NCBI GenBank assembly: GCA_031257295.1
Contig: JAIROX010000001.1
Span: 62,001 to 126,000 of the forward strand
DNA: 64,000 nt
Source: Candidatus Nomurabacteria bacterium
GTDB taxonomy: Bacteria; Patescibacteriota; Saccharimonadia; Saccharimonadales; Saccharimonadaceae
Reading direction: 5' to 3'
The notes beneath the pieces are model-generated. The model worked only from the letters and a program-made list of their open reading frames with translations, had not been told where the DNA came from and ran no database searches. How positions within the stretch are numbered: the stretch's first letter is position 1; the number at the start of each line of letters is the position of its first letter. Position numbers and translations under genes: made by a program. Below are positions 30,448-42,044 of the stretch, in pieces.

Positions 30448-31892
30448 TATGCACTACCATTGCGGCTGAATACGACGCGAATGGTTTTGATAAGAATTTT
30501 AATATCTAACCAAAAACTCCAGCTTTGGGTGTAATATAGCTCGAGGTCAACTCGACGATCAAACGAAAGCTTGCTGCGCCCGGATACGCTGGCTAAGCCA
30601 GTTAGTCCTGGCTTGATGCTAAGCAGTAAGGCGCCACGGCCTTTGAACTCACCGAGTTCATCGGGCATGATGGGGCGCGGGCCGACTAGGCTCATCTCGC
30701 CCCTGATGACGTTGACTAATTGAGCGAGTTCATCGAGTGAAGTCATGCGTAGAATATGACCGAATCGAGTAATGCGAGGGTCATGCTTGACCTTGTGGTC
30801 TCTGGTATATTCAGCTACTAGATCGTCGCGCCCCATCGACTTGAAGATGGCGACTGCATCACCGACATTCTTGCCGGAATACTTGGGGTTCATGGAGCGG
30901 AACTTGTAGCAGTTAAAGGGTTTTTTGTATCGCCCGAGACGTTTTTGTTTGAAGAATACTGGTCCGGGGTTGAATACTAGTTGGGCCAAGACGACCAGTA
31001 CAAATATCGGAATCCAGATGGGCGCGAAAACCAACAGGACCAATAGGTCGAAGATGCGCTTGAAGAATGAACCCCAGCCGACTAGGGGCGTTTGATAGAT
31101 TTTGATGATTGGGTAATCTAGAAAAATATCTATCTCATTCTTGCCAGAGTAAAACTCTGGCTCGCCAGGGATAAAACAGTAATTGATATGGGCAGCCTGA
31201 GAGGCGGCCAAGATTTGCTGGTTTTTCTTTTGTTCTTCGTAGAAACTAGTTTGGATAACTGTGCTGATGCGATCTTTTTTGAGATGCCTCAAGGCTTCGT
31301 CTATGGTGGTGTAGCGTTTGAGGTCGCAACTGTCGGGAACGAACTTTTTTGGCCCGGCCACAGCGACCACTTTGTAACCATGCTTTTGATCGCAAGATAA
31401 CGACTTGATAATGTCGTAGTTAATGCTCGTAGCACCGATTAAAAGTACGCGATTGATACCGTGGCCGTGCTGGAAGGATAATGAACGGATGAAACGGGTG
31501 GTCTCGCGCTCTAGGACAATTAGTACGAAAGCGCCAAGGAAGGCGTAGACGGCCACCAGGCGGGCCGGAAAAATCGACTCATTGCCAATGTATTCCCAAC
31601 CTATGACCAGTAGTATACCGATAAAGCAACCGAGGAAGATCTTGCCCCACGAGACTAAACGGCGGTCGTAGTTGATGGGTGAATATAGCCCTAGGCAGGC
31701 GAAAACTATCACCCAAAGCGGTACGATTGCTAGAAGTGAGAGAAGGTATTCGCCGGCGTACATCTGGTTGAGTAGCGGGCGCGGGTCGTAGGAGACTCGG
31801 GCTACGTAGGCTAAAACAAAGGCCACAGTTAAGACAGCTAGATCCAAGACGACTAAGAGTAAGCTAAATAAGCGATTATTTTTCGCTGGCAT
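30447..31892 (-). CDS. Polyprenyl-phosphate sugar phosphotransferase (WbaP/CpsE-like initiating enzyme)
   Basis: A 481-aa membrane enzyme that starts glycan assembly by moving a sugar-phosphate from a nucleotide sugar to undecaprenyl phosphate. Four to five helices fill residues 8-125. A Rossmann-type region follows (RVLLIGATSINYDIIKSL near 150). After a membrane re-entry at about 280 (FKRIFDLLVLLVFAPIWIPIF) comes the catalytic part: GPVFFKQKRLGRYKKPFNCYKFRSM, then TRFGHILRMTSLDELAQLVNVIRGEMSLVGPRP and the end QSWSFWLDIKILIKTI. The ATG at 31892 is set by TACAAT 6 bases upstream; an in-frame extension upstream overlaps the divergent regulator and is rejected. Confidence 0.92.
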   Translation of the reverse strand: MPAKNNRLFSLLLVVLDLAVLTVAFVLAYVARVSYDPRPLLNQMYAGEYLLSLLAIVPLWVIVFACLGLYSPINYDRRLVSWGKIFLGCFIGILLVIGWEYIGNESIFPARLVAVYAFLGAFVLIVLERETTRFIRSLSFQHGHGINRVLLIGATSINYDIIKSLSCDQKHGYKVVAVAGPKKFVPDSCDLKRYTTIDEALRHLKKDRISTVIQTSFYEEQKKNQQILAASQAAHINYCFIPGEPEFYSGKNEIDIFLDYPIIKIYQTPLVGWGSFFKRIFDLLVLLVFAPIWIPIFVLVVLAQLVFNPGPVFFKQKRLGRYKKPFNCYKFRSMNPKYSGKNVGDAVAIFKSMGRDDLVAEYTRDHKVKHDPRITRFGHILRMTSLDELAQLVNVIRGEMSLVGPRPIMPDELGEFKGRGALLLSIKPGLTGLASVSGRSKLSFDRRVDLELYYTQSWSFWLDIKILIKTIRVVFSRNGSA

Positions 31893-31898
31893 AGTTAT

Positions 31899-31908
31899 AT
31901 TGTACAAT
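31899..31908. promoter_or_regulatory. Palindromic shared -10 of two divergent leaderless genes
   Basis: ATTGTACAAT reads as TACAAT on both strands. The plus copy (31903-31908) ends 6 bases before the ATG at 31915; the minus copy (31904-31899) ends 6 bases before the ATG at 31892. A TTGTAA (minus, 31927-31922) at 17-base spacing lies within the regulator's first codons. Only one promoter can be occupied at a time. Confidence 0.75.
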
Positions 31909-31914
31909 GATTGC

Positions 31915-32268
31915 ATGGTACTTACAAAAAAACAGCAGGCGGTGCTAGATTTTATCAAGCAGTTTTTAGCTGAGCGGGGTTATAGCCCGAGTTATCGCGA
32001 AGTCTGCGCTGGTTTAGAGGTCAAGTCGATCTCTACAGTAGCGGAGCATATAGACAACTTGGTGGCTAAAGGGTACTTGGCTAAAAAAGATGGTTCGGCC
32101 AGATCGTTGGAGCCAGTTGAGCAGCCTCGTGCTGTGCCGGCTGCGCCTAAGGAGAGTGAAGCTTTCCAGCAGAAAATTGCCGAGCTTGAGGCTGGCTTGC
32201 CAGAAACAGCGGCGGATATCGAAACTTTGAAAAAGGCTGCCGAGCTGCTGGGCATTAATCTTTCTTGA
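31915..32268 (+). CDS. LexA-like winged-helix protein lacking the S24 protease domain
   Basis: A 117-aa protein. Residues 1-67 match the LexA N-terminal DNA-binding domain: LTKKQQAVLDFIKQFLAERGYSPSYREV, then SISTVAEHIDNLVAKGYLAKKDGSARSLEP with the recognition helix. Where LexA has its self-cleaving S24 domain (about 120 residues with Ser-Lys), this protein has only a Pro/Ala linker and a short helical end (AFQQKIAELEAGLPETAADIETLKKAAELLGI), possibly a dimerising coiled coil. It therefore cannot undergo RecA-driven cleavage. It shares its -10 with the divergent sugar transferase and so may repress both (inference). Its end overlaps the convergent gtrA gene by 14 bases. Confidence 0.82.
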   Translation: MVLTKKQQAVLDFIKQFLAERGYSPSYREVCAGLEVKSISTVAEHIDNLVAKGYLAKKDGSARSLEPVEQPRAVPAAPKESEAFQQKIAELEAGLPETAADIETLKKAAELLGINLS

Positions 32269-33740: not shown

Positions 33741-33772
33741 AATCCACTAAGCATTCGCGCTAGTGGATTTTT
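33741..33772 (+). terminator. Terminator after tRNA-Asn
   Basis: AATCCACTA / TAGTGGATT stem, 11-base loop, followed by TTTTT. The next promoter (-10 at 33775) begins within 3 bases. Confidence 0.8.
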
Positions 33773-33774
33773 GT

Positions 33775-33780
33775 TATAAT
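33775..33780 (+). promoter_or_regulatory. -10 box for leaderless Abi-alpha gene
   Basis: TGT-TATAAT, 6 bases before the ATG at 33787. Confidence 0.6.
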
Positions 33781-33786
33781 TTCTGT

Positions 33787-34464
33787 ATGGATGACAGAAA
33801 CGCTATTGAAATAGCAAAAGAGGCAGTGAAGCAAATCGCAAAGCCTGTCCAAGATTTCATTGGTGCAGTTTTCGGAAAGCCCGCAAACGAACTAGGTGAA
33901 TGGATTTCAGACACCATTCGTGGCAAACGTTTCGAAACACAATTGAAGATATTCACTAAGGCAAGACAGCTAACGCAAGATTCCGGGCTGGAGCCAAGCG
34001 CTATCAATTTAAAGGTGCTTGTCCCCCTACTTGAAAATGGTTCCTTGGAAGATAACGAACCAATTATCGACATGTGGGCACATTTGCTAGCAAACGCATC
34101 AACTTCGGATAATGTACGAGCAAGCTATATCGCAATACTGAAAGAGCTTGAACCAGCAGAAGCAAAAATAATGCAGTATATCTACAATGAATCTGTCAAA
34201 AAATATGGTAATGATTTTATTCCAACAAACGAGTATGCAGGATCAATGGAGGGAGCGACAGTAAGAAAGCTGTTTGGGTTATCTGATCAGGACTTCGAGC
34301 AATCAATCGATAACCTGTATAGGTTAAGATTATTGGCCCCTACTGCTTCTAGGCTAGAATTCTTAGATAATAAGGAAATACCGTTCGCGCATTATTCAAA
34401 AACGACTTTAGGTGTAACCTACCTGGGCTATTACTTCGCTAGAGCTTGCAATAAAAGTCCATGA
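33787..34464 (+). CDS. Abi-alpha (DUF4393) family protein
   Basis: A 225-aa soluble protein matching the abortive-infection alpha family by its N-terminal layout (AKEAVKQIAKPVQDFIGAVFGKPANELGEWISDTIRGKRF). The central block is VLVPLLENGSLEDNEPIIDMWAHLLANA followed by YIAILKELEPAEAKIMQYIY. The family is named after phage-resistance proteins, but most members are uncharacterised. It sits alone between the terminator of tRNA-Asn and another terminator, with its own leaderless promoter, which is the layout of a cassette. I saw no integrase or duplicated tRNA end. Function in defence is an inference from the family name. Confidence 0.78.
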   Translation: MDDRNAIEIAKEAVKQIAKPVQDFIGAVFGKPANELGEWISDTIRGKRFETQLKIFTKARQLTQDSGLEPSAINLKVLVPLLENGSLEDNEPIIDMWAHLLANASTSDNVRASYIAILKELEPAEAKIMQYIYNESVKKYGNDFIPTNEYAGSMEGATVRKLFGLSDQDFEQSIDNLYRLRLLAPTASRLEFLDNKEIPFAHYSKTTLGVTYLGYYFARACNKSP

Positions 34465-34485: not shown

Positions 34486-34512
34486 AAATAGAGAACCTTA
34501 GGTTCTCTATTT
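34486..34512. terminator. Bidirectional terminator
   Basis: Perfect 12-bp stem AAATAGAGAACC / GGTTCTCTATTT with a 3-base loop, then CTTTTG on the plus strand and AAATAG... with TTTTCTC on the minus. It separates convergent genes and includes the stop of the leftward one. Confidence 0.85.
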
Positions 34513-35607
34513 CTTTTGCCCTAGAGCATCAAGGTAAGCTTGATGAGTCTCGCGGGCGCAACGCTCCCAAGAAAAATCCTTAACACGTTCTTTGCTGCGC
34601 TTAGACAGGTCTTTTAGCAGCTTTTTGTCGCTTAGCACAGAGATGATCCTATCAGCCATGTCGTCCGGGTCTGTAGGGTTGAAGTATATGGCGCTGCCCC
34701 CGTAAATTTCTGGCAGACAAGTGGCATAAGAACTAATCACAGGTGTGCCGAATTGCATAGCCTCAAGGCCGGGCAGGCCAAAACCCTCCATGAGCGATGG
34801 GAAAACGTAAGCTGCGGCGTTTTTGTATAGGTAAGCTAGCTGATCATCTGGCAAGAAGCCGGTGAATAGAACACCTTCGGCACCTATCTTATTTGTGAAC
34901 TCTTCGTGTTTTTCAGTGTAGTAGCTTTTGCGACCAACTAACACTAGGCCCAGGTTTCTGTCGTAAGTGTCGCGTACCTTCTGGTGGGCGGTAATTAACC
35001 GTTTGATGTTTTTGTAATCAGTCTGGCTGCCGACGTATAGAAGATATTTTTTGAAGGGTAGCTTATAGGTACGCGATTTGACGCCAACCTTATCGGCGGC
35101 GTCGTAGATCACGCGAGCTTTGTCTTCTGGTATGCGCGCGAATTTTACAAAGTCACGCTTAGTATACTGGCTGGGGGTGATAACGACTGTGGACCTTTTA
35201 CCGACCGACTTAAAAACCAGGCGTCCGATGGCCTGTTTAATATGGAATAACAACCAGTTTTTATCTGAATTGTAGGTGTTAAATAAGATCAGGTCGTGCA
35301 CAGTTGTCACCTTATTCTTGCGATACAGCACTGGCTGTTGTGGCATGCAGAAGTGAACTAGATCGGCCTGGAGGCTGTTTAAGAACTTATTAAAACCAAG
35401 TTGCTCACTAATTGAGTAGTTCTTGAAATCGGCTGGCATCACTCTAAAATTTTTATTCGCAGGCTTCCAGCAGTAGATATCGACAGACGGCACCAGAATG
35501 GTGTAGTTATTGGTTTTGTCGATCTTTTCCAGATAAGTAAGCAGACGCTCTATGTAGCGCCCGGTTGAAGAATTAATAATTCGCGCGTCTATGACAATGT
35601 GTGACAT
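34507..35607 (-). CDS. GT4 glycosyltransferase
   Basis: A 366-aa GT-B enzyme. The N-terminus reads IVIDARIINSSTGRYIERLL, typical of GT4 mannosyl- or rhamnosyltransferases. The C-terminal donor domain shows LLYVGSQTDYKNIKRLITA, LVLVGRKSYYTEKHEEF and the E-x7-E motif FPSLMEGFGLPGLEAMQFGTPVISS. It likely adds a sugar to the surface polymer built by its neighbours. Its leaderless promoter is interlocked with that of the divergent GDP-mannose operon, so the two are probably controlled together. Confidence 0.9.
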   Translation of the reverse strand: MSHIVIDARIINSSTGRYIERLLTYLEKIDKTNNYTILVPSVDIYCWKPANKNFRVMPADFKNYSISEQLGFNKFLNSLQADLVHFCMPQQPVLYRKNKVTTVHDLILFNTYNSDKNWLLFHIKQAIGRLVFKSVGKRSTVVITPSQYTKRDFVKFARIPEDKARVIYDAADKVGVKSRTYKLPFKKYLLYVGSQTDYKNIKRLITAHQKVRDTYDRNLGLVLVGRKSYYTEKHEEFTNKIGAEGVLFTGFLPDDQLAYLYKNAAAYVFPSLMEGFGLPGLEAMQFGTPVISSYATCLPEIYGGSAIYFNPTDPDDMADRIISVLSDKKLLKDLSKRSKERVKDFSWERCARETHQAYLDALGQKK

Positions 35608-35643
35608 ACGAGCGATTATACTGTATAATAGGGTTGATGTCTA
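35601..35643. promoter_or_regulatory. Interlocked divergent leaderless promoters
   Basis: Rightward: GTGACA (35601-35606), 17 bases, TATAAT (35624-35629), 7 bases, ATG at 35637. Leftward: TAGACA (minus, 35643-35638), 17 bases, TATAAT (35620-35615), 7 bases, ATG at 35607. Each -35 overlaps the start codon of the opposite gene. The -10 boxes lie back to back in the near-palindrome ATTATACTGTATAAT. Confidence 0.85.
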
Positions 35644-36182
35644 AAGTATATGACAAATTTTTGCTCATAGACCACAAAGATATGACTCGGCCGCAACTTG
35701 CGGCTGCGGTCGTAAATGCTATGGTTGATGCCCACTATAGATTTTCTGAAATCGAGATTTCTAAGCCGTGGGGGTTGTATTTTAGTATTGAGAACAGCCA
35801 GGCAGACAAGTTTATTAAAGAGTTTTTCCCAGAACTTGATCTCAGCGAAGTGCGAATGGGTGATCCGGATGCGATGCTCACCCCAAAAATACTGCTACAC
35901 TTGCCTGGTCAGCGTAACAGCTGGCAGTATCATCACCGCCGGGCTGAGATGTGGCATTTTTTGACAGGCGGGGCATATCACAAGAGCTTGACTGATAAAC
36001 AGGGTAAGGAAAAGACTACAAAGGCTGGCGACATTGTAAAGTTTGCGCCGCGCGAGAGGCACCGCTTGGTTGGTGCACCAGATAGCCTAACTTTTGTAGC
36101 AGAGATTTGGCAACATGTGCATGATACTCCGTCTGACGAAGATGATATCGTGCGCGTTGAAGATGATTTTAATAGGGAATAA
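35637..36182 (+). CDS. Cupin mannose-6-phosphate isomerase-like protein (type II PMI domain)
   Basis: A 181-aa protein, probably the enzyme converting fructose-6-phosphate and mannose-6-phosphate. The C-terminal 130 residues match the isomerase half of bifunctional AlgA/ManC enzymes: PKILLHLPGQRNSWQYHHRRAEMWHF with the metal His pair, KAGDIVKFAPRERHRL, and the ending EDDIVRVEDDFNRE. In many bacteria this domain is fused to the guanylyltransferase; here the next gene, 11 bases on, encodes that half separately. It opens the operon that runs to the mutarotase gene. The start is set by a -10 at 7 bases. Confidence 0.8.
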   Translation: MSKVYDKFLLIDHKDMTRPQLAAAVVNAMVDAHYRFSEIEISKPWGLYFSIENSQADKFIKEFFPELDLSEVRMGDPDAMLTPKILLHLPGQRNSWQYHHRRAEMWHFLTGGAYHKSLTDKQGKEKTTKAGDIVKFAPRERHRLVGAPDSLTFVAEIWQHVHDTPSDEDDIVRVEDDFNRE

Positions 36183-36193
36183 GGAGGTTACTG

Positions 36194-37237
36194 GTGATAG
36201 TAACTATTATTGCTGGTGGTTCGGGAACTCGGCTATGGCCGCTGTCAACCTCGGGCTACCCAAAACACTTACTAAGCTTAACTGGTGAAGATACCATGCT
36301 ACAGCTGGCTTACGCGCGAGCTGCTGCTGCGGGCGACGAAGTTTATATTGTAACTGAGGCTAGCCATGCACATCATGTCAAGGCGCAGGTGCCAGATTTA
36401 CCGGACGACCATTTTTTAATTGAACCGGGCCGTCGCGGCACAACCAACTGTATTTTGATGGCTTTGGACATCATTAGCCGTACGCACGGTAAAGATGAAT
36501 CAATCGCTTTTATCCACTCCGACCATGTTATAGAAGATGTGGATTCGTTTGTGGCGTCATTCCATAAAGCTGCTGAGGCTTCACAAAAAGAGGGTATCAT
36601 TACACTGGTTGGTATCACCCCAACTTACCCAGCGACAGGTTTTGGCTACATTGAAAAAGGCGAACGAGTCGGCGATGTCTATAAAGTTACTAACTTTGAG
36701 GAAAAGCCAGACCTAGAAACTGCCGAAAAGTACCTGAGCTCGGGCGATTATGTGTGGAACGCGGGCTATTTTATTGGTTCAGTAAACACGTTTTTGAAAG
36801 AAATTGACCGTAGCTCGCCGGTCATGGCAGAAAGTTGGAAGTTGTTGACTAGTGTTAAGAAATTCCCGAGTGAAGAATACGGCGAAGCTTACCTGTCGCT
36901 AGATAGTGATGCGATTGACTTTTCACTGATGGAGCCGGCCAAAGAACTTCTTGTGCTGCCTGCCGAGTTTGACTGGGCGGATGTTGGTTCGTTTAAAGAT
37001 CTACACAGTATTATCAGCAAAGACGAGAACGGTAACTATTACAGCGGTGGAGACGATATTTTCACAATCGAGACTGAAGATGCTTACATTCGCAACGAAG
37101 AAAAAAAGCCATTGGCGGTTATTGGTCTTAAAAACATCGTAGTGGTCAACACTAAAGACGGCTTATTAGTTGCTAAGAAAGATGCTGCGCATAAAGCTGG
37201 TGATGTAGCCAAGCAGCTAAATAAGAGGAGTAAGTAG
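36194..37237 (+). CDS. manC: Mannose-1-phosphate guanylyltransferase
   Basis: A 347-aa enzyme that makes GDP-mannose from mannose-1-phosphate and GTP. It has the nucleotidyltransferase signature IIAGGSGTRLWPLSTSGYPKHLL at the N-terminus, AFIHSDHVIED near residue 110, GYIEKGERVGDVYKVTNFEEKP and the catalytic-site WNAGYFIGSVNTF. DWADVGSFKDLHSI lies near 255. The C-terminus is the left-handed helix type and lacks the isomerase domain, which is supplied by the preceding cupin. GTG start with AAGGAGG upstream. It has a tandem paralogue two genes downstream. Confidence 0.9.
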   Translation: MIVTIIAGGSGTRLWPLSTSGYPKHLLSLTGEDTMLQLAYARAAAAGDEVYIVTEASHAHHVKAQVPDLPDDHFLIEPGRRGTTNCILMALDIISRTHGKDESIAFIHSDHVIEDVDSFVASFHKAAEASQKEGIITLVGITPTYPATGFGYIEKGERVGDVYKVTNFEEKPDLETAEKYLSSGDYVWNAGYFIGSVNTFLKEIDRSSPVMAESWKLLTSVKKFPSEEYGEAYLSLDSDAIDFSLMEPAKELLVLPAEFDWADVGSFKDLHSIISKDENGNYYSGGDDIFTIETEDAYIRNEEKKPLAVIGLKNIVVVNTKDGLLVAKKDAAHKAGDVAKQLNKRSK

Positions 37238-38584
37238 ATGAGTTTTTTTGTAGAGGGCTGGAAAGAAAAGATAAAATCTGCGCCAAAAAAGGCTATTCAC
37301 GTTGTGATAATTGCTACTAAGCCGGACATTATCAAACAGGCACCTCTGTATAATGAACTCACCCGCCGCGGTGAGTTTGTACTACTGTGCCATACTGGCC
37401 AGCACTACGATTACCGCTACTCAGGCGGTGTGCTTGAAGAGTTTGGTATGGAGGTTGGCGCAAATCTTGAGATATCTGGCACGGTTAACCAAAAAACCGC
37501 TCAGTCGATTGAACGATTTGGTGAGATATTAGAATACATTAAGTCTTGTGATAAGATCGCAGTACCGTATATTCACGGTGACACTTTCGCCGCTATGGCA
37601 ATTGGTGTGGCCTCTATAATCAATCGCGTGGCTTGCTGCCACGTAGAGGCCGGAATCCGAACTTTGACACCAAAGACTGAAGTTTACCAAAAATTCCTGG
37701 ACGACTACAAAGCAGGCAAGTTCTCGTTTGACGAGTACCATGCGGCTATGCAAGACCAAGGTAACTTTTCAACTGGCTCGATGGAGCCATTTCCGGAGCA
37801 GCTTGATACCCGAATCGCCGAAACAGCCACTGGCTATCATGCGGCGCCTGTTGAACTGGACCGTCAGTTTATGTTAAACGAGGGTTTTCTGGATGAAAAT
37901 ATCGAGGTCGTTGGTAATACGGTGGCCGACGCTTGCCATATGGCGCTAGATGAAATTAAAAAAGGCAACTCAAAGATTCTAGACGACCACCCAGAGCTGA
38001 AATCTAAAGAATTTATCCCGGTGATTTTGCACCGCCGAGAAACCACTGAAAACCCAGAGCGTATGGCCGTTGTGATGGATATGTTGCGCAAAATGCTTGA
38101 AGAAGGTATGAAAGTATACCTAGTGGTGCTTAACGGCTTTGAGGCTGCTTTGAAGAACTTCGGCTATTGGGACGAAGTGCAGTCATGGGCCAAGAAGTAT
38201 AAAGGCAGCTTTATCACCACTCCGGCGATTACTTTCCACAAAGACGTCGTGAATCTATCTATTAACTCACCTGTAATGGTTATAGATAGTGGTTCGCAGC
38301 AGGAGGAGCTGAACGTTCTGGGTACACCACAGGTAACACTCAGGTTCGGCAGTGACCGCGGCGAGTCATTCCTGGCTGGTGCAAATGTGCCGGCTCCGCC
38401 AATTGATGCCGGGTTTACCATTGAGATTATCAAGGGTGCATATAACAACCAATCTATGCGCGAAGTTGGCAATATCTACGGTGAAGACGTGGCTCGAAAA
38501 GTTGTTGACGGTGTTCTGGCTCGGTTTGATGACAAACTGGGGTTGTTTATGACCGAAGAACGTAGACTAAGGCTGAAGATTTAG
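37238..38584 (+). CDS. UDP-N-acetylglucosamine 2-epimerase-like protein (WecB family)
   Basis: A 448-aa GT-B-like epimerase. Family marks are LLCHTGQHYDYRYSGGV near residue 50, HGDTFAAMAIGVAS, CHVEAGIRTLTPK, VILHRRETTENPER near 265, and VIDSGSQQEELNVLGTPQVTLR near 350. It carries an insertion of about 50 residues (roughly 150-200, YQKFLDDYKAGKFSFDEYHAAM...) between the HVEAG motif and the domain crossover, not present in classical WecB. It would give UDP-ManNAc if the activity is standard, but its place inside a GDP-mannose operon may point to another substrate. It begins directly after the manC stop, with AGAGGAG in the end of manC. Confidence 0.78.
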   Translation: MSFFVEGWKEKIKSAPKKAIHVVIIATKPDIIKQAPLYNELTRRGEFVLLCHTGQHYDYRYSGGVLEEFGMEVGANLEISGTVNQKTAQSIERFGEILEYIKSCDKIAVPYIHGDTFAAMAIGVASIINRVACCHVEAGIRTLTPKTEVYQKFLDDYKAGKFSFDEYHAAMQDQGNFSTGSMEPFPEQLDTRIAETATGYHAAPVELDRQFMLNEGFLDENIEVVGNTVADACHMALDEIKKGNSKILDDHPELKSKEFIPVILHRRETTENPERMAVVMDMLRKMLEEGMKVYLVVLNGFEAALKNFGYWDEVQSWAKKYKGSFITTPAITFHKDVVNLSINSPVMVIDSGSQQEELNVLGTPQVTLRFGSDRGESFLAGANVPAPPIDAGFTIEIIKGAYNNQSMREVGNIYGEDVARKVVDGVLARFDDKLGLFMTEERRLRLKI

Positions 38585-38592
38585 GGGGGGGG
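38584..38592 (+). repeat. Homopolymeric G9 tract before second manC
   Basis: Nine G in a row begin in the TAG stop of the epimerase gene and form the ribosome-site region of the GTG start at 38599. Slippage would change spacing of the ribosome site. Confidence 0.8.
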
Positions 38593-38598
38593 TGATAA

Positions 38599-39648
38599 GT
38601 GATTACGATTATCTTTGCATCAGGCGTTGGCACTCGATTGTGGCCGCTATCGACCAACGAGCACCCCAAACAATATAGGAAGCTGCTTAGCGACGAGTTG
38701 TCGATGTTACAGCAAACTTACAACCGAGCCATCAAGATGTCGAATGCGGTTTATATGATAGTGCGAGATGAGCACATGAGCCATGTTAAAGAACAGTTTG
38801 CCGACGTTGATGATGATAAGATCATTATCACGCCAGTTGCTAATGGTACGACAAGTTGCGTGATTATAGCGCTAGATGTGCTGCGCAGGCAGGGTGTCAA
38901 CGAAGACGAGCCGATAGTATTTGTGCCGGCCGACCACCACATCGACAACGAAGACCTATTTGTGGCGACGTTCACCGAGGCTGCCAAAATTAGCCAAAAA
39001 ACCAACGCCATCACTTTGGTTGGTATATCACCAACTTATGCATCGACCAACTTTGGGTATATTGAAGCAGGCAAGACAGAGGGTGGTATAACGAAAGTCA
39101 GCTCATTTAAAGAAAAGCCAGATGCTGCAACTGCCGAAAAGTATCTCAAGACCGGGCGATACTACTGGAACGGCGGCTACTTTGTGGGCACATACAGTAC
39201 GTTTACCAATGAGATTGAAGAGTTCAGCCAACCTATGCAGGACAGGCTGGAGAAGCTTAGGCAAGTTGCCAATTATCCGTCAAAAGAGTACACGGATCTT
39301 TACGGTAGTTTTCCAGAAGAAGCAGTCGATATTTCACTGATAGAAAAGTCGAATAATATCTACTTAACAACTGCAAAATTCGGTTGGTCTGACGTCGGCA
39401 ACTTTAAGGACTTACACGACGTGCTAGACCGAGATGGTGCAGACAATCATATTATCGGTGACGATGTTTTTGTGATCGGCTCGACGAATTCTTATATTCG
39501 CGACGACGGTGGCAAGCCAGTAGCGATAATTGGTCTGAAGGACGTTGTAGTAGTAAACACCGAAGATGGCCTATTGATAGCTCATAGGGACTCCGTTCAT
39601 AGAAACGGTGAAGTTGCAAAACAGTTAAATAAAAGGAGTAGCAAGTGA
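38599..39648 (+). CDS. Second mannose-1-phosphate guanylyltransferase-like protein
   Basis: A 349-aa tandem paralogue of the manC at 36194; both end in VAKQLNKRS. Conserved: GTRLWPLSTNEHPKQYRKLL, VFVPADHHIDNED, GYIEAGKTEGGITKVSSFKEKP, WNGGYFVGTYSTF, GWSDVGNFKDLHDVL. The phosphate-binding loop is altered: FASGVGTRLWP here against IAGGSGTRLWP in the first copy, that is Ser for the first conserved Gly and Val for Ser. This may weaken catalysis or shift the sugar or base used. GTG start after a G9 tract. Its stop overlaps the next start (GTGA). Confidence 0.8.
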   Translation: MITIIFASGVGTRLWPLSTNEHPKQYRKLLSDELSMLQQTYNRAIKMSNAVYMIVRDEHMSHVKEQFADVDDDKIIITPVANGTTSCVIIALDVLRRQGVNEDEPIVFVPADHHIDNEDLFVATFTEAAKISQKTNAITLVGISPTYASTNFGYIEAGKTEGGITKVSSFKEKPDAATAEKYLKTGRYYWNGGYFVGTYSTFTNEIEEFSQPMQDRLEKLRQVANYPSKEYTDLYGSFPEEAVDISLIEKSNNIYLTTAKFGWSDVGNFKDLHDVLDRDGADNHIIGDDVFVIGSTNSYIRDDGGKPVAIIGLKDVVVVNTEDGLLIAHRDSVHRNGEVAKQLNKRSSK

Positions 39649-40427
39649 TTAAAGTTATTGCATTTGATCAAGACGATACACTAACCGTGTCAAAACGGCC
39701 GATGACGGCAAATATGGCCGCCCTGATAAAAAAGCTATTAGGCAAATATGAGGTTTGCATTATTTCGGGTACAAACTGGGAAGTTATGAAAGTAAATGAT
39801 ATTGATGTTCTGCAAGGTCCAGGCTCGATTCTGGATGACGACGTGACAGATGACGAGCTGAAGCACCTGCATGTTATGGCCACAACAGGCACGCAATATT
39901 GGCACTTTGTTGATGGCGACTGGAAGAGGGAATACGCGCACTTTTTGACAGACGAAGAAGTCACCAAGGTGTCGGAACTCTTAGAGAAAGCTAGCCGAAA
40001 GCTAGGCTACTGGTGTGAAAATCCAGCTGGTGAGATTATCGAAAACCGTGGCTCACAAGTGACGATGTCGGCATTAGGGCAACTGGCTGATCCTGAAGAT
40101 AAAAAGGTTTGGGATCCGGACAAGTCTAAGCGCAACGCCATCAAGGCCGAAGTAGAGGACGAAGTGAGCGCTATGGGGCTAGAGATTCTGTCTGGCGGTT
40201 CAACATCCGTTGATGTCGTTAAGCCGGGCATCGATAAGGCTTATGGCATGCGGCAGTTAATGGAGCAACTTGGCGTCAAAAAAGAGGAAATCTTGTTCGT
40301 TGGTGACAGGCTAGACCCAGAAGGTAACGATTATGCCGTAAAGCGCGATGGTTTTAAGACTATTGCTGTCGAAAAGTGGGAAGATACGCTTTATGTGATA
40401 GAAGGTATCCTAGGTGTTACTGACTAG
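39645..40427 (+). CDS. HAD-type phosphomannomutase-like protein
   Basis: A 260-aa HAD-superfamily protein similar to the eukaryotic-type phosphomannomutases (subclass IIB cap). It starts IAFDQDDTLTVSKRPM, the DxDxT nucleophile motif, followed by CIISGTNWEVM (motif II) and a cap domain in the middle. The end has LFVGDRLDPEGNDYAVKRDGFKTIAV, close to the PMM motif GDxxxxGGNDYE. It would convert mannose-6-phosphate to mannose-1-phosphate, the step missing between the cupin isomerase and ManC. Length fits the family (about 250 aa). GTG start overlapping the previous stop by 4 bases. Confidence 0.82.
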   Translation: MIKVIAFDQDDTLTVSKRPMTANMAALIKKLLGKYEVCIISGTNWEVMKVNDIDVLQGPGSILDDDVTDDELKHLHVMATTGTQYWHFVDGDWKREYAHFLTDEEVTKVSELLEKASRKLGYWCENPAGEIIENRGSQVTMSALGQLADPEDKKVWDPDKSKRNAIKAEVEDEVSAMGLEILSGGSTSVDVVKPGIDKAYGMRQLMEQLGVKKEEILFVGDRLDPEGNDYAVKRDGFKTIAVEKWEDTLYVIEGILGVTD

Positions 40428-41025
40428 CGGAAAAGCCGAAGTAGAAATTGACCCCAAAGGTGCTTATGTGACACGTTGGGCGGTAGACGGCCGTGATATC
40501 TTATACCCAAAGTCAGAGTTGAAGAACTCCAAGGGTGAGTCAAAGACCCGCGGCGGCTGTCATGTTTGCCTGCCTAACTTTGACAATGGCGACAAGTACG
40601 GATTGCCGCACCATGGCTATGGCCGCCTGGTCGATTGGCGGGTTGTGAGCCAGTCGGCTAGCAGCCTAGCGCTTGAAATTGACAATGGTGACCAGCAGGT
40701 ACCAGAAAAGTACCACGGTCTTAAGGCTCGTTTGGTCTATACACTTGAAGCCGACAAGCTAACTATGCTGCTCTGGGTAAAAAATGCTGGCGACGCTGGC
40801 GTTGAAGTTGATCCAGCCTTCCATCCGTATTTTCTGAACGATGCGCCACTTTATGAGCTATCGCCAATGAACTTACCTGTCACCTTAGTCTGGTCAGATA
40901 ACTTGGATAATTATTTCTGTGCCGAGCCAACGGCTAATGGCCGTAGTTTTAAGGACAGCGTGCCGAATGTTCTTGAGCCTGGTGAAGAGAAGAGCTATAG
41001 TCTGGTGACCACGGTTCTGAAATAG
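40414..41025 (+). CDS. Aldose 1-epimerase / hexose-phosphate mutarotase-like protein
   Basis: A 203-aa beta-sandwich protein related to aldose epimerases. Seen are EVEIDPKGAYVTRWAVDGRDILYP, then GGCHVCLPNFDNGDKYGLPHHGYGRLVDW with the catalytic-type His pair, and VDPAFHPYFLND near residue 143. It is shorter than typical mutarotases (about 280-300 aa), so part of the sandwich is missing or reduced. It may speed anomer exchange of a hexose phosphate for the GDP-mannose route (inference). GTG start overlaps the previous gene by 14 bases. The promoter for gmd lies in its last codons. Confidence 0.72.
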   Translation: MLLTSGKAEVEIDPKGAYVTRWAVDGRDILYPKSELKNSKGESKTRGGCHVCLPNFDNGDKYGLPHHGYGRLVDWRVVSQSASSLALEIDNGDQQVPEKYHGLKARLVYTLEADKLTMLLWVKNAGDAGVEVDPAFHPYFLNDAPLYELSPMNLPVTLVWSDNLDNYFCAEPTANGRSFKDSVPNVLEPGEEKSYSLVTTVLK

Positions 41026-41033
41026 GGTATAAT
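41005..41033 (+). promoter_or_regulatory. Promoter of gmd
   Basis: GTGACC, exactly 17 bases, TATAAT. The start near 41040 leaves a 15-base leader with AGGAGG, so this gene is leadered and can be expressed apart from the upstream operon. Confidence 0.65.
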
Positions 41034-41054
41034 TAACGCATAGTAGGAGGAATA

Positions 41055-42044
41055 ATGACGAAGAGAGCACTAATTACGGGTATCACGGGCCAAGATGGCG
41101 GCCATCTAGCGAAACTGCTTGGTGACAAAGGCTACGAGGTTTATGGAATAATCCGTGGGCAGCAAAATCCTAAGCGACGTGCTACAGAAGAAGAGTTTCC
41201 TTATGTTAAGCTGATTGAAGCCGACCTATTGGATATGTCTTCACTGGTACGCGCTTTACAGATCGCCAAGCCAGACGAAATTTATAATCTTGGTGCCATT
41301 AGCCATGTCGGCTATTCATTTAAAGACCCGCAGCTAACTGCAGACGTAACCGGTAAAGGTTGCTTGAATATGCTTGAGGCCATTCGTTTAACTGGTGGCG
41401 AGAAGACGGTTAGGTTTTATCAGGCGTCAACGTCAGAAATGTTCGGCGGCCTTGAATATAATCGTCCAGAAAAGGGCTATAATGAAGAATCTCAATTCCA
41501 CCCACGTAGTCCATATGGTGTAGCAAAGCTTTACGCCCACTGGATTACTAAAAATTACCGTGAGAGTTATGGCATGTTTGCTGTTTCGGGTATTCTTTTT
41601 AACCACGAAGGCGAGCGCCGTGGCGTGGAATTTGTAACCCGTAAGATTACTAATGCAGTGGCGCGTATTAAGCTAGGTTTACAGGACCACGTTGAATTAG
41701 GTGACTTATGGCCAAAGCGCGACTGGGGCTATGCAGGTGACTATGTAGAAGGCATGTGGCGTATGTTGCAACAAGACAAACCTGACGATTTTGTATTGGC
41801 GACAGGTGAGACTCACTCGATTGAGGAATTCTTAGATCTAGCATTCAAGGAGATTGGTATTGACGATTGGAAACCATATGTTAAACAAAATCCGGCCTTT
41901 ATGCGTCCTGCAGAAGTTGACTTATTGTTAGGGGACCCAACTAAGGCTGAGACAGTTTTAGGCTGGCAGCGAGAAGTAGACTTTCCGGGCCTGGTTAAGC
42001 TGATGGTACAACATGATCTAGAGATTGAAAGCCAAAATAAGTAG
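41055..42044 (+). CDS. gmd: GDP-mannose 4,6-dehydratase
   Basis: A 329-aa short-chain dehydrogenase that converts GDP-mannose to GDP-4-keto-6-deoxymannose. NADP site: ALITGITGQDGGHLAKLL. Gmd-specific marks: YQASTSEMFGG (catalytic Thr-Ser and Glu), FHPRSPYGVAKLYAHWIT with the Tyr-x3-Lys pair, FNHEGERRGVEFVTRKI, and GDLWPKRDWGYAGDYVEGMW. AGGAGG lies 5 bases before the ATG. It is the last gene of the rightward sugar-nucleotide block, followed by a terminator and by the convergent reductase that would use its product. Confidence 0.95.
   Translation: MTKRALITGITGQDGGHLAKLLGDKGYEVYGIIRGQQNPKRRATEEEFPYVKLIEADLLDMSSLVRALQIAKPDEIYNLGAISHVGYSFKDPQLTADVTGKGCLNMLEAIRLTGGEKTVRFYQASTSEMFGGLEYNRPEKGYNEESQFHPRSPYGVAKLYAHWITKNYRESYGMFAVSGILFNHEGERRGVEFVTRKITNAVARIKLGLQDHVELGDLWPKRDWGYAGDYVEGMWRMLQQDKPDDFVLATGETHSIEEFLDLAFKEIGIDDWKPYVKQNPAFMRPAEVDLLLGDPTKAETVLGWQREVDFPGLVKLMVQHDLEIESQNK

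Follow-up and report, generated by a model that had tools for sequence, protein, structure and literature searches.

A glycosyltransferase gene and the GDP-mannose operon diverge across 29 bp in the stretch of DNA analysed here (the window, 64,000 nucleotides), and there are good grounds to think that they are expressed from one compact shared promoter region, as two leaderless units of a single glycan pathway. Two sigma70/SigA-type promoters would face away from each other there, with a palindromic -10 core in common, and the most likely reading is that of a conserved shared core which co-expresses the two halves of the pathway, refined in this lineage to a double-leaderless form assisted by -35 elements. 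The geometry can be read directly: within positions 35601-35643, GTGACA-17-TATAAT-7-ATG runs to the right and TAGACA-17-TATAAT-7-ATG to the left. All of these elements are present where a first-pass annotation of this DNA had described them, as are the three bases that it had counted between the opposed -10 hexamers (CTG, 35621-35623). It was also right that each -35 lies on the first codons of the opposing gene, namely codons 1-3, and that the ATG-TC starts furnish the bases, the codons being ATG-TCA-CAC in the left gene and ATG-TCT-AAA in the right one. What it had missed is leaderless mRNA, which, to judge from the sequence, is the main reason for this compactness. The elements and genes are as follows.

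35601..35606, + strand: -35 of the rightward promoter, GTGACA, on codons 1-3 of the glycosyltransferase gene
35624..35629, + strand: -10 of the rightward promoter, TATAAT, 7 nt before the ATG at 35637-35639
35643-35638, - strand: -35 of the leftward promoter, TAGACA, on codons 1-3 of the cupin gene
35620-35615, - strand: -10 of the leftward promoter, TATAAT, 7 nt before the ATG at 35607-35605
35615..35629, no strand: palindromic core ATTATAC-T-GTATAAT, made of the two -10s, the part of the locus that relatives conserve
34507..35607, - strand: glycosyltransferase gene, GT4 type, 366 aa, start ATG-TCA-CAC, predicted leaderless (Pfam Glycos_transf_1, E 7.3e-32)
35637..36182, + strand: cupin gene, mannose-6-phosphate isomerase C-terminal type, 181 aa, start ATG-TCT-AAA, predicted leaderless (Pfam MannoseP_isomer, E 1.2e-5)
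36194..42044, + strand: rest of the rightward cluster, its co-transcription as a whole presumed from spacing
36194-37237, + strand: manC-like gene
37238-38584, + strand: UDP-GlcNAc 2-epimerase-like gene
38599-39648, + strand: second manC-like gene
39645-40427, + strand: PMM-like HAD gene
40414-41025, + strand: aldose-epimerase-like gene
41055-42044, + strand: gmd

The promoter pair and its genes

The two -10 hexamers form a perfect odd palindrome of 15 bases. Under sigma70-type scoring both sites reach 11/12 and are the top two in the surrounding 12 kb; each -35 agrees with the consensus at 5/6 positions, and the extended -10 motif TGn is absent from both. In the whole genome of 747,608 bp no second back-to-back pair at a gap of 0-12 scores 10/12 or better at both sites; 20 genomes simulated with an order-2 Markov model give an expected mean of 0.15 such pairs per genome, and no pair at all with both sites at 11/12 or better. 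The spacing of the -10 hexamers is in itself unremarkable: back-to-back -10s at gap 3 number 19 genome-wide against 9-26 at neighbouring gaps, with no enrichment.

The cupin gene is the first of the GDP-mannose operon, and a relative of its product at 74% identity begins at the same Met-Ser-Lys. Further along the cluster, the two manC-like genes (36194-37237 and 38599-39648) are 48% identical and flank the UDP-GlcNAc 2-epimerase-like gene; the cluster of a relative in the same genus has a single manC-like gene and no epimerase at the corresponding place. On the other side of the promoter pair, a gene of the Abi_alpha (abortive infection) family (33763-34464) lies between glycosyltransferase genes and adjoins a tRNA-Asn gene.

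Probable leaderless expression

The seven nucleotides before the start codon read AGGGTTG for the right gene and CGCTCGT for the left one; beyond them lies the -10, and no Shine-Dalgarno motif is found in either. The AGGG of the right gene, 3 nt from its ATG, would fall at or outside the 5′ end of the transcript. The TANNNT signal that a survey of leaderless bacterial genes describes some 12 bp upstream of the start (PMC3160421) is seen here as well, TATAAT standing 7 nt before the ATG of both genes, with its first T 13 bases upstream, and it recurs throughout the genome. That survey deals with genes one by one, whereas at this locus a single promoter region is common to two of them. This spacing implies that each transcript begins at the start codon, at or beside the A of the ATG (35607 and 35637), so that the presumed starts would be some 30 bp apart, or 28 bp if each lay 7 bp from its own -10.

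The genome as a whole displays the same habit. In about one quarter of its genes TATAAT lies 6-8 bases upstream of the start codon, and these genes are probably leaderless, as far as their sequences can tell. In the set of 601 predicted genes, the -10 motif is by far most frequent 12 bases (68 genes) and 13 bases (23 genes) before the start, as against about 5 at other offsets, and the Shine-Dalgarno motif has a peak of its own at 10-12 bases. About 143 genes thus look leaderless and 241 (about 40%) are led by a Shine-Dalgarno motif, counts which are approximate, the gene starts coming from a simple ORF predictor. Most of the leaderless promoters are of the extended -10 kind (TGnTATAAT), with little -35. 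For Saccharibacteria our search of the literature brought up neither a map of transcript starts nor a survey of leaderless genes.

Because both genes appear to be leaderless across a gap of 29 bp, the -35 positions fall inside the opposing gene, in its first codons. These codons, whether by chance or by selection, read GACA on the other strand, and would thereby provide usable -35 elements that offset the missing TGn. Two RNA polymerases would be unable to occupy these 43 bp simultaneously. At ordinary firing rates the glycosyltransferase and the GDP-mannose operon would probably be expressed together, with no either/or choice between them, and the membership of both genes in one pathway fits joint rather than alternative expression.

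Double-leaderless divergent pairs exist elsewhere in this genome, with gaps of 14, 22, 40, 43 and 55 bp, the last three being candidates. At the 14-bp gap, tighter than that of the glycosyltransferase/cupin pair, RarA-like and alpha/beta-hydrolase-like genes (named from their sequences, without database search) diverge from overlapping extended -10s (CATGATATAATTTTAACATG, contig C6:33704-33719). Within the window, at 31890-31917, TACAAT-6-ATG is found in both directions on the palindrome ATTGTACAAT (31899-31908), between genes for a sugar transferase (-) and a short LexA-type HTH protein (+); the gap is 22 bp and the presumed starts are 23 bp apart, a value that is one of the published optima of start spacing for bidirectional promoters. 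The HTH gene (31915-32268), located inside a glycan cluster, encodes a LexA DNA-binding domain and apparently no LexA peptidase domain.

Conservation in relatives and rival explanations

The cupin is present in 18 of 101 and in 44 of 394 sampled relatives, and named matches place the group that bears it in Candidatus Saccharibacteria; glycosyltransferase orthologues (E <= 1e-40) occur in 64 of the 101. A divergent glycosyltransferase stands beside the cupin at 11 other distinct loci, in one case a distant paralogue (33% identity). Six genomes, this one included, have in common the core A[G/T]TATACnGTATAAT, with its two -10s 3 bp apart. In its degenerate form, A[GT]TATAC-N-GTATAAT, the core keeps the same 3-bp spacing while the flanks diverge, and it is unique or nearly so within each of the six. 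In the relatives it is accompanied neither by TGn nor by a good -35. In most of them a Shine-Dalgarno motif precedes the cupin and the gap is longer, at 33-65 bp, and the leaderless state of the cupin is therefore not conserved. We also searched 394 genomes of the family for the geometry CAT-7-ATTATA-3-TATAAT-7-ATG, allowing at most 2 mismatches: 161 matched, as against about 18 for a reversed control. Nearly all of the 30 further loci that we inspected turned out to be one real leaderless promoter together with a chance half-site, and for that reason we make no claim that the exact geometry is widespread in the family. Among the loci inspected, only those of this genome (G000) and G180 match without mismatch and with a long ORF on both sides.

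The first-pass annotation had expected the -35 bases in codons 1-2 to be conserved in relatives, and had held that absence of such conservation would speak against its claim. It is the -10 core that is conserved instead: in the 8 other divergent copies scored, no hexamer at spacer 17 exceeds 4/6 for either promoter. At the level of the family the embedded hexamers are thus unconserved, and the one other genome of the genus that the comparison covered lacks the pair. The glycosyltransferases of the divergent relatives start with ATGCAT, ATGGCx or ATGCGT, hence without Ser2; orthologues elsewhere that do have Ser2 encode it by AGT in six cases and by TCN in four. In the nearest genome, of the same genus, the cupin keeps its TATAAT-7-ATG-TCG start, with an extended -10 and no -35, and there is no divergent glycosyltransferase, from which it follows that ATG-TC is there independently of any need for a -35 on the opposite strand. 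All this lends some weight to the possibility that the -35 hexamers are coincidental by-products of Met-Ser starts, only the -10 core being at work, as in the relatives. We hold this account to be possible, if rather doubtful. On the opposite strand ATG-TC invariably reads GACA, and in 46 of 510 ATG genes (9%) codons 1-3 match TTGACA at 5/6 positions or better at this offset. Against it stands the presence of both hexamers at exactly 17 bp, a coincidence of about 0.8% if the hexamers were unselected. Furthermore, the TGn-less promoters of this genome tend to carry a -35 at spacer 17: one of at least 4/6 is found in 13 of the 56 leaderless promoters without TGn, the two present sites counting among the 13, as against 7 of the other 87 (p = 0.014). 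Both promoters of the pair being devoid of TGn, their 5/6 -35s are plausibly used.

The first-pass annotation had gone further, and saw in the pair an either/or switch between the glycosyltransferase and the GDP-mannose operon. Overlapping divergent promoter sequences do lie between the two, and this part of the proposed coupling stands; the switch, for which no regulator site was found, is unsupported. Exclusion could come about by occlusion between RNA polymerases or through a regulator bound to the palindrome. The overlap between the predicted footprints is complete, relatives retain the palindromic core, and at bidirectional promoters of Escherichia coli one side can be repressed when the other is strongly activated (PMC12825309). 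In the five promoters tested there, however, basal activity was too low for competition, repression appearing only when the other side was substantially activated. At the present locus no activator or repressor site is evident, nor any second state, and this, together with the negligible competition at basal activity, makes a switch less likely. The palindrome, moreover, is just the two -10s. We considered it as the operator of a regulon and rejected the idea: it occurs once in the genome, where it is not repeated as an operator elsewhere, and is rare elsewhere in the relatives. One does not see what genes of the same pathway would gain from excluding each other, and in several relatives the glycosyltransferase and the cupin are far apart or co-directional. 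We consequently take the switch to be unlikely. An idea of the same kind, that codons 1-3 are in this lineage under double selection (for Met-Ser and for the opposing -35), the 43 bp forming a self-contained pair of promoters, and that mutual occlusion balances or toggles glycosyltransferase against sugar-nucleotide supply in a regulator-free manner, appears improbable as well. Still less probable is that the genes are not leaderless at all, their promoters being located inside the opposing genes and the motif pair acting as a decoy. The rightward ORF is, it is true, also open from a GTG at 35601, but homology in the nearest relative begins at the ATG at 35637, both -10s sit at the spacing of leaderless genes genome-wide, and the -10 core is conserved.

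Known divergent promoters and significance

The shared promoter region that we favour has obvious likeness to the bidirectional promoters of Warman and Grainger (Warman et al., 2021, Nat Microbiol 6:746, as cited for them by PMC12825309 and PMC10268837): pseudo-symmetrical -10 DNA, divergent transcription, one RNA polymerase at a time and, often, production of mRNA. Such promoters are defined by divergent starts 7-25 bp apart (with optima at 10, 18 and 23) and by overlapping -10 positions (PMC10268837), whereas here the presumed starts, at 30 or 28 bp, lie outside that range and the hexamers, though parts of one palindrome, are 3 bp apart. In further contrast, both genes here are predicted to be leaderless, with -35s in the opposing codons. 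The pair is therefore not a strict bidirectional promoter by the published definition, although it should behave like one sterically.

A second comparison is with operator-controlled divergent operons, which have a palindromic regulator site that is typically common to several promoters of a regulon. In bioA/bioBFCD and tetA/tetR, overlapping divergent operons of that kind, a dedicated operator and its repressor belong to the overlap. The present locus resembles them in that functionally linked genes have overlapping divergent promoters, and differs in that no operator or repressor was found: the only palindrome detected is the -10 pair itself, while a non-palindromic site is possible.

Elegant as it is, the pair can be explained as a product of leaderless expression where the genome is reduced. 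It illustrates cleanly, in a natural setting, how leaderless transcription allows the region between divergent genes to shrink to about 30 bp, and how such shrinkage forces promoter elements into opposite reading frames. More generally, the sequence speaks for the use of leaderless promoters of the extended -10 kind by about one quarter of the genes in a Saccharibacteria-type genome. If the -35s embedded in codons are functional, then the choice among synonymous codons at position 2 would bear on the regulation of the adjacent gene.
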